Source: Acidilobaceae archaeon
Lineage (GTDB): Archaea; Thermoproteota; Thermoprotei_A; Sulfolobales; Acidilobaceae
Direction: 5' to 3'
Assembly (NCBI GenBank): GCA_027080775.1
Contig: JALWPV010000011.1
Span: 124,001-188,000, forward strand
Length of the DNA stretch: 64,000 nucleotides
Position numbers and translations under genes: made by a program. Positions 25,996 through 27,241 of this stretch are shown one piece after another. Position 1 is the stretch's first letter; each line of letters starts with the position of its first letter. The notes beneath the pieces were generated by a model. It did not search any database and had not been told where the DNA came from. It worked only from the letters and a program-made list of their open reading frames with translations.

Positions 25996-26586
25996 CTATA
26001 AGTGCCTACACCGCTCCTTCAGGGACTCAATGCAGGTCTTGAACCTCTCGAGTCTCTCCTTATACCTAGCCATCACGGAGCAGAGGGCGCTCACCACAGT
26101 ACAGTCCACTGGGAGGGTCACATGCAGTTTATCGTGGACAGCCACCTCGACAAAGTAGTAGCCCCCAGCCTCCTTCCTATAACACGATCTTATAAAGCCG
26201 CTCTCCCTAGCACATCTTACTATCTCGAGCGCCCACCCCTCATCAATGGATAAGAAGTGGAGTATAGGGGGCTGAAGGCTCAGCCACGAAAGCCTAGAGC
26301 CCATCGCAGCCAGCTCGCTTAGGGGGATCCTGCATATATCGAGGCACTCGCGAGCATCATGAGTGACCCAAAGGCTTCTCGCGCCAGCCTTGTCAAGTAG
26401 GCTAGTCGCTGACTCCAGCAGGACGAGCCTACCGCTGCAACTGCTGGTGGTGAAGAAGCAAGCATTATCCTCGTTAATGCGTAGAAGCCAATCCTCTATA
26501 TCAGAGTCCACCAGGCCCTCGGAGACGTGCCTCCTAAGCCTCTCGAGGGCTTCGCGTCTTCTGCTATACCAGGCTGCTGGCTGCAA
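25996..26586 (-). CDS. taw3: tRNA wybutosine-synthesis protein Taw3 (Tyw3)
   Basis: A 196-residue enzyme that methylates N4 of the 7-aminocarboxypropyl-demethylwyosine precursor at G37 of tRNA-Phe. The family signature FFTTSSCSGR lies near residues 44-53, then LWVTHDA and LQPPILHF segments. tRNA-Phe itself is encoded in the window at 11518. Its gene leads a run with the FecCD permease, ABC ATPase and hisS; relation to transport is probably only positional. Confidence 0.85.
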   Translation of the reverse strand: MQPAAWYSRRREALERLRRHVSEGLVDSDIEDWLLRINEDNACFFTTSSCSGRLVLLESATSLLDKAGARSLWVTHDARECLDICRIPLSELAAMGSRLSWLSLQPPILHFLSIDEGWALEIVRCARESGFIRSCYRKEAGGYYFVEVAVHDKLHVTLPVDCTVVSALCSVMARYKERLERFKTCIESLKERCRHL

Positions 26587-26681
26587 AGCTAGAGATGCCC
26601 CTCCCCAGCTCTGGCAGCCTGGCGTGTCTCTGAACCCCTAATAACCTCGCCCTATAATCTAAGACCGCGGGTGGCGCTGGT

Positions 26682-26843
26682 ATGAGGAGACTAGAGGAGG
26701 AAGAGGAAGAGGAACTAGAGGAGGAAGAATACTGGCTCGACGAGGAAGAAGAGTTAGAGGACCTAGAGGAGGAAGAGTACCTAGAAGAGGAGTTCGAGGA
26801 GGAAGAAGAGTTAGAGGAGGACTTGGAGGAGGAAGAGGAATAA
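26682..26843 (+). CDS. Ultra-acidic, glutamate-rich 53-residue protein
   Basis: A short frame with ATG and TAA encodes 53 residues of which about 37 are Glu or Asp, with regularly placed Leu, Tyr, Trp and Phe between acidic runs (for example LEEEEYWLDEEEELE). Only two basic residues occur, both in the first three positions (MRR). A GGTGGCG ribosome-binding site lies 6 bases before the ATG, a CTATAATCT box is 25-30 bases upstream, and a T5 tract lies 30 bases downstream. The alternating GAG/GAA codons with Leu every few residues suggest an acidic helix. Function unknown; a DNA-mimic or a partner of a basic protein is a guess. Confidence 0.65.
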   Translation: MRRLEEEEEEELEEEEYWLDEEEELEDLEEEEYLEEEFEEEEELEEDLEEEEE

Positions 26844-26872
26844 CACCCGCGTGGAAACAGCTTATCGCCCCC

Positions 26873-26877
26873 TTTTT
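26873..26877 (+). terminator. Possible T-rich terminator after the acidic micro-gene
   Basis: A T5 tract sits 30 bases after the stop of the acidic micro-gene in the gap before the convergent DUF211 gene. Archaeal termination often uses short T tracts, but this is a weak signal. Confidence 0.25.
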
Positions 26878-26950
26878 CCTAGGCTAGCTTTGTATTGCAG
26901 TTGAATATGAATCCGAGGAGCGCGGGTATAAGCTTACTCTCCCTCTGCTC

Positions 26951-27241
26951 TTACTCTTCGATGTCTGGCTCTTCAACTATTTTTTCCCCTGCCACCACCT
27001 GGTCTATGCTGTGTATGGCACATCCAAGCTCTTCTAATCTCTCGCTGAATGACTCGAAGTCTATGTCGTCGCCTTCAACAGTTATGCTTAGTGTTATTGT
27101 CTCGACGTCTATCTCCTTTACCGTTATGTTGACCCCGCTAACGCCTTTGATTGACGCCAGTTCCCTGGCGACATCCACTATTGAGGGGCCCTTCATAGGT
27201 TTTAGCACGTCCAATACTAGCCTCCTGAGGGGCGCAGACAC
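26951..27241 (-). CDS. DUF211 family protein
   Basis: A 96-residue archaeal protein of the DUF211 (ferredoxin-fold) family. It shows RRLVLDVLKPMKGPSI at the N terminus, VNITVKEIDVETITLSI in the middle, and IHSIDQVVAGEKIVEEPD at the C terminus. Related structures form ring oligomers and bind metal ions, but the cellular role is unknown. It starts 6 bases after the AGOG stop on the same strand and is convergent with the acidic micro-gene. Confidence 0.85.
   Translation of the reverse strand: MSAPLRRLVLDVLKPMKGPSIVDVARELASIKGVSGVNITVKEIDVETITLSITVEGDDIDFESFSERLEELGCAIHSIDQVVAGEKIVEEPDIEE

Follow-up and report, generated by a model that had tools for sequence, protein, structure and literature searches.

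ABCE1 is assisted by eIF3j (PMC7196836), in whose N-terminal acidic domain a Trp binds a pocket of eIF3b (PMC2824034), and Lto1, the maturation adaptor of ABCE1, has an essential C-terminal Trp (PMC4523923). Work on S. solfataricus ribosomes indicates unstable subunit association in crenarchaea and lineage-specific 30S proteins (PMC11698992), which together make an extra recycling factor plausible. The gene compared here with these systems encodes a small acidic protein and lies in a 64-kb stretch of DNA (the window), whose nearest named records are Acidilobaceae MAGs. It is best explained as a relocated member of a Thermoproteota-wide family, the commonest position of which is directly upstream of abce1 on the same strand. 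Handles beginning with G, C, L, f and g stand for genomes, contigs, loci, families and genera, respectively.

The gene and its surroundings

The features of the locus, in positions of the window, were as follows.
25996-26586, minus strand: gene for a Taw3-like protein (NCBIfam NF047731), divergent neighbour
26630-26652, plus strand: conserved block CTGAACCCCTAATAACCTCGCCC, putative promoter, the same in a congener with both flanking sides differing
26660-26681, plus strand: conserved 5' leader, the same in the congener, with a putative ribosome-binding-like site GGTGGCG at 26670-26676
26682-26843, plus strand: microprotein gene with 53 codons and a stop codon; its product is 72% Glu/Asp and falls in the Thermoproteota family of acidic-aromatic microproteins
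26869-26879, plus strand: conserved C/T tract CCCCTTTTTCC, kept in the congener, putative terminator
26951-27241, minus strand: gene for a DUF211-like protein (name taken from the earlier sequence-only reading), convergent neighbour

The ORF starts with ATG at 26682, stops with TAA at 26841-26843, and encodes the 53-residue product MRRLEEEEEEELEEEEYWLDEEEELEDLEEEEYLEEEFEEEEELEEDLEEEEE. The sequence-only reading had described a Glu-rich chain of this length with almost no basic residues past the first three, and both statements hold: Glu and Asp make up 38 of the 53 residues (72%), and R2 and R3 are the only basic residues, with none after R3, giving a charge of about -35. The hydrophobic residues are 8 Leu, 2 Tyr, 1 Trp and 1 Phe; Gly is absent and the C-terminal residue is Glu. 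No other ORF of the same make-up was found in the 64-kb window, and a strict poly-Glu pattern matched a single place in the window's genome, namely this ORF.

The congener (G002/L034) carries the ORF at the same place, within about 10 kb of surrounding DNA that is 85% identical. Between the genes, GAACCCCTAATAACCTCGCCC, TAAGACCGCGGGTGGCGCTGGTATGAGGA and the CCCCCTTTTTCC tract past the stop are the same in both genomes, and the remaining intergenic DNA has diverged. The conserved block upstream of the ORF, GAACCCCTAATAACCTCGCCC, ends at about 26652, and the promoter block includes a BRE/TATA-like TAATAA at 26639-26644; GAACCCCTAATAACCTCGCCC is the likelier promoter candidate than the TATA-like CTATAATC named by the earlier reading, which is present at 26652-26659 but is not kept in the congener. 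The gene's own GGTGGCG site and T tract, also named there, are both present (26670-26676 and 26873-26877), and the C/T tract CCCCTTTTTCC is a probable transcription terminator. An inverted repeat of 8 bases, CGCGGGTG/CACCCGCG (26667-26674 and 26844-26851), flanks the ORF and overlaps the ribosome-binding site; it is disrupted in the congener.

The Taw3-like protein, a relative of the tRNA wybutosine methyltransferase, matched NF047731 with an E value of 4.5e-18 and 65.6 bits, the family cut-off being 200. Another Taw3-like gene is located at G000:C28:153752 of the same genome, the copy at 25996-26586 being a divergent second paralogue, and several other Acidilobaceae genera have relatives of the latter with 35-47% identity. 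The DUF211-like gene is conserved within Acidilobaceae, and the microprotein gene adjoins it in the window's genus only; no microprotein ORF was found beside DUF211 or Taw3-like genes in other genera.

Selection on the reading frame

Insertions and deletions between the window ORF and that of the congener are single codons only, and the frame is kept, a test on which the earlier reading had made the reality of the ORF depend. The residues following the start are RRL and RIR, respectively. Among codons aligned under guidance of the protein, a procedure that favours matches, 14 synonymous and 1 non-synonymous differences were counted; a fairer test is given by five gap-free family pairs outside the window (L262/L263, L285/L287, L213/L214, L217/L218 and L290/L291), which in sum showed 28.5 synonymous and 2.5 non-synonymous differences, with pN/pS of about 0.01. 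Purifying selection on the reading frame, taken as a mark of membership, is thus found in the window ORF also, and the comparison indicates that 26682-26843 is a genuine protein-coding gene under strong purifying selection.

That a chance low-complexity, purine-rich tract has been mistaken for an ORF is scarcely credible. Poly-GAR DNA and the short length might suggest it, but frame, start, ribosome-binding site and stop are kept with synonymous drift, and such ORFs recur across the phylum with near-zero reversed-pattern controls. Chance low complexity was rejected on the conservation of the reading frame.

Distribution of the family

A protein search with the window ORF returned the congener as the sole match, because low-complexity sequence of this kind is biased in composition. 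A genus-restricted orphan, first suggested by the lack of orthologues at the same locus elsewhere, was overturned by searches with DNA patterns for Glu runs interrupted by a hydrophobic residue (EEE-[aromatic/L]-x-EEE), in which the first relatives came from Aeropyrum-like genomes and other Acidilobaceae. Within the class, the pattern matched 146 of 229 genomes, as a rule with 2-4 clustered matches at one place (about 15 matches for the reversed-pattern control); across the phylum, it matched 217 of 398 sampled genomes. These counts contain some false matches (e.g. f18), vary with the pattern and are too low for diverged forms.

A family member was defined as an ORF of less than about 70 aa with about 60% D/E or more, interspersed W/F/Y/L, and almost no K/R in the acidic part. 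ORFs were read at 137 loci (two counted twice) in 37 GTDB families, one such ORF per locus, giving 131 distinct sequences; the start codons of some were guessed as the nearest start ahead of the acidic run. Members have 15-68 aa, about 70% D/E, and a W, F, Y or L roughly every five residues, as in MFEEEWWEEEEEEEWWEEEEEWEEEEW (L256) and MVFEEDWEEDFDEFDEEEDWEEEEDWEEEEW (L287). No second ORF of this make-up was found in 758 kb of loci around members. Two gene copies at different places were seen in G186 (L208, L209), G229 (L325, L326) and G032 (L240, L241).

The window ORF has the composition of the family (53 aa, 72% D/E, Y/W/F/L interspersed, no K/R after residue 3) and would be one member of a family present nearly throughout the class and in much of the phylum Thermoproteota. 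The mean number of Trp per member is 4.9 outside Acidilobaceae and 2.9 inside. A C-terminal Trp, common in the family rather than defining, occurs in 96 of the 137 members; Glu is the last residue of the window member and of 12 of the 20 distinct Acidilobaceae members. That the Leu-rich window member is homologous to the Trp-rich, ABCE1-linked ones is argued from composition and from bridging Acidilobaceae sequences (MKYLEEEEEEYWEEEEEWDELEEEWEEIEEEEEWEEEEEDEFWEEEEE, L231; MARRKFEEEEEYEEEFDEEELEEEEEEEEYWEEEEEEEYWEEEEEEEEE, L238), alignment being unable to prove it, and a likeness through convergence is possible.

No match was obtained in Pfam for the window, f2, f11 and f21 members or in NCBIfam for the window and f2 members, tests that HMMER bias filters weaken, nor in the PDB for the window, f11 and f2 members, which agrees with the failure of the sequence-only reading to recall a matching family. 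No description was found in the literature searched, and the acidic-aromatic microprotein family is apparently undescribed; some members may be annotated as hypothetical proteins in arCOG or UniProt.

A recognisable copy was not found in some genera, of f6 and of f18, the latter a family that we take to be Nitrosopumilaceae-like; matches in f18 were rejected as stretches of other, longer proteins, or nothing. A viral origin was rejected, as the one viral-contig match was part of a long, unrelated protein, terminase-like by our own reading of its sequence. E/W tails also occur as parts of fusion proteins, with a LysW-like zinc ribbon in f36 (PF21344, E 3e-6) and with a different zinc-finger-like domain in f69. 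The ORFs of these zinc-ribbon/finger fusions were the following.
L339, 2944-3216, minus strand
L340, 2827-3105, plus strand
L331, 2923-3174, minus strand

Linkage to abce1

When flanking proteins were clustered, one neighbour stood out, a protein with Fer4_RLI and two ABC domains, i.e., the ribosome-recycling ATPase ABCE1. In 58 loci, its gene directly follows the microprotein gene on the same strand. After removal of 14 loci fetched via ABCE1, this arrangement was found in 44 of 123 loci and 17 families, and abce1 lay no more than three genes away in 66 of the 123; for any one gene, such adjacency would arise by chance about 1 time in 1500. Where the first pattern gave no match, scans of the region ahead of ABCE1 revealed diverged members in Sulfolobaceae-like f11 and F/L-rich members in f15 (L356, L358, L359). 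Judged by synteny, the link of the family to ABCE1 is well supported. The earlier statement that position gives no clue therefore stands for the window but not for its relatives, whose adjacency to abce1 is a strong clue.

Other recurring neighbours include a Cgi121-like KEOPS protein (E 5e-5 in NCBIfam, under the cut-off) and proteins that, mostly by our own reading of their sequences, are ubiquitin-like, a phosphoribosyltransferase and an RPB9-like zinc ribbon, so that ABCE1 is not the sole possible partner. The RPB9-like single zinc ribbon is seen repeatedly, its gene lying between the microprotein gene and abce1 or next to them (L217, L343, L346, L347, L357, L360); in f16 it has itself a poly-Glu tail, possibly a fusion. 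A theme of tRNA-37 modification (Taw3-like, e-MtaB and Cgi121-like neighbours) is present, but these genes are often divergent or convergent, and it was set aside as weaker than the ABCE1 link.

The position directly upstream of abce1, with short gaps of 3-385 nt in many lineages, could point to a cis-acting leader peptide, the acidic nascent chain of which would pause or destabilise ribosomes and set the translation of abce1, with feedback linking ABCE1 supply to ribosome recycling. Ribosomes are destabilised or paused by acidic nascent chains in bacteria and eukaryotes (PMC9718836, PMC11282234), and a translation-aborting small ORF controls a Mg2+ transporter of Salmonella (PMC8092293). Such a leader is nonetheless judged distinctly unlikely, as the protein is kept under strong selection with its own promoter or on the opposite strand, far from abce1, in the window, f1, f4, f5, f8 and f9, and N-terminal ribosome destabilisation needs no conserved C-terminal Trp dozens of residues on.

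In the window's genome, abce1 is located at G000:C11:114207-116009, about 35 kb from the microprotein gene, and a scan beside it revealed no microprotein. Location beside abce1, again common in the family rather than defining, was found at 0 of 21 Acidilobaceae loci. The gene is likewise not beside ABCE1 in f4, f5 and f8, and in f9 it lies a few hundred bases off on the opposite strand; the make-up is kept in f1, f4, f5, f8 and f9 despite a gene distant from abce1 or on the opposite strand. Such loss of linkage with retention of the gene argues for a trans-acting protein, since a cis leader would not be expected to survive it, and action in trans is the likeliest mode for the Acidilobaceae microprotein. 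Within f11, three genomes of genus g39 (G226, G080, G163; L292-L294) have no copy upstream of ABCE1, and a fourth (G225, L277) has a clear copy at a different site, which makes a further independent relocation.

At 12 Acidilobaceae loci the microprotein gene adjoins the gene of the t6A37 methylthiotransferase (radical-SAM e-MtaB), and at most of these a methyltransferase gene is on its other side. In L234-L243 and others (g6, g8, g12, g14), its neighbours are the genes of a SAM methyltransferase, divergent, and of a t6A37 methylthiotransferase, convergent.

These neighbours bear on a role as an Fe-S maturation adaptor for ABCE1, and possibly for further Fe-S enzymes such as e-MtaB, in which the C-terminal aromatic residue would bring in a cluster carrier, on the model of Lto1 and yeast Rli1. 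ABCE1 has two 4Fe-4S clusters, the radical-SAM e-MtaB is a neighbour in 12 Acidilobaceae loci, 96 of 137 members end in Trp, and yeast Lto1, which serves Rli1, requires its C-terminal Trp (PMC4523923, PMC10623007). The role is nevertheless quite improbable: the window member and most Acidilobaceae members have no C-terminal Trp, the e-MtaB adjacency is convergent and forms no operon, and archaeal PRIM1 homologues were reported to be without the CIA C-terminal signal (PMC10623007).

Shape of the peptide

The hydrophobic residues of the 131 distinct sequences showed no 100-degree periodicity (z about 0.4) and no 160-180-degree (beta) signal; they avoid spacings of 2-4 and favour about 5 and 10. 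With neither an alpha-helical nor a beta signal, the peptide is best pictured as an acidic spacer bearing stickers, and the 'amphipathic rhythm' of the sequence-only reading proved to be a spacing near five, not a helical one. AlphaFold2 with the single sequence drew one 51-residue helix with pLDDT of 95, probably a poly-Glu artefact of the model; poly-Glu commonly yields a long predicted helix. An amphipathic helix was rejected on periodicity despite this drawing.

The extreme charge, the loss of synteny in several families, and a sequence fixed in nothing but composition and spacing are what a general-purpose polyanion would show, i.e., a metal or polyamine buffer, a chaperone-like hydrotrope or a nucleic-acid mimic, for which the synteny with ABCE1 would be merely historical. 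This is thought rather unlikely, because costly Trp and Phe, unneeded by a plain polyanion, are strictly kept, there is usually one very short copy, and the linkage to one gene is repeated across 17 families.

Proposed function

The reading put forward, at somewhat under an even chance, is a trans-acting, disordered acidic/aromatic partner of ABCE1 or of the post-splitting 30S, which would operate in the manner of the Trp-bearing acidic motif of eIF3j. The product would be a mostly extended polyanion with aromatic or aliphatic 'stickers' every five residues or so and usually a C-terminal Trp, serving the ribosome-recycling machinery in trans as its ligand or cofactor. Docking of the stickers may take place in hydrophobic pockets, either on ABCE1 or on the 30S platform that ABCE1 leaves behind, and the Glu spacers may mimic rRNA or compete for it, by which ABCE1 loading, ABCE1 release or subunit reassociation would be modulated. 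We infer co-transcription with abce1, a physical contact between the product and ABCE1/30S, and which way the effect runs. Of three functions guessed at in the sequence-only reading, a ribosome-tail-like factor comes closest; a histone antagonist or DNA mimic gained no support here from sequence or synteny.

More broadly, and more tentatively, Thermoproteota may possess a conserved, unrecognised trans-acting ABCE1 cofactor, a 20-60-residue acidic-Trp peptide whose gene precedes abce1 in many lineages and which would control splitting or reassociation of their loosely coupled ribosomal subunits as a functional counterpart of eIF3j. Archaea are not known to have eIF3, nor eIF3b, the partner of eIF3j. 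Through the ABCE1 linkage, the question of what assists ribosome recycling in archaea without eIF3 becomes testable. A family nearly universal in the class, widespread in the phylum, strongly selected and missing from curated libraries is an annotation blind spot, in which shortness and low complexity have probably defeated gene finders and profile searches. It is also one of the simplest natural acidic-aromatic sticker-and-spacer peptides, and occurs in hyperthermophiles.

Comparison with known systems

Like the microprotein, aS33 and aS34, which belong to the small subunit of Thermoprotei, were previously unannotated and are lineage-specific; unlike it, the two proteins are ordered on the 30S, and aS34 carries two zinc ions (PMC11698992). 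Identity with them was rejected, as they are different proteins and the PDB search gave no match to the microprotein. The MgtL-type and EttA-dependent acidic leader peptides of bacteria share with the family a short ORF, early acidic codons and a position upstream of another gene in many lineages, but several lineages have, unlike the case of these leaders, retained the family with no linkage to the downstream gene, which implies a trans product.

Lto1 (ORAOV1), the Fe-S adaptor of Rli1/ABCE1, resembles the family in its dedication to ABCE1 and its conserved C-terminal Trp (PMC4523923), and differs in having a deca-GX3 domain and a Yae1 partner; the window protein, having no Gly and ending in Glu, shows neither the deca-GX3 domain nor the C-terminal Trp of an Lto1/CIA protein. 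In eIF3j/Hcr1 of eukaryotes, a Trp lies likewise within a short acidic stretch, and the protein acts on the small subunit and aids ABCE1 recycling (PMC2824034, PMC7196836); eIF3j is a larger protein, and the likeness is one of composition and context, with homology or membership not claimed. The small Zn ribbons of f36 (PF21344) and f69 carry the same E/W tail in fused form, and the window protein corresponds to the tail alone.
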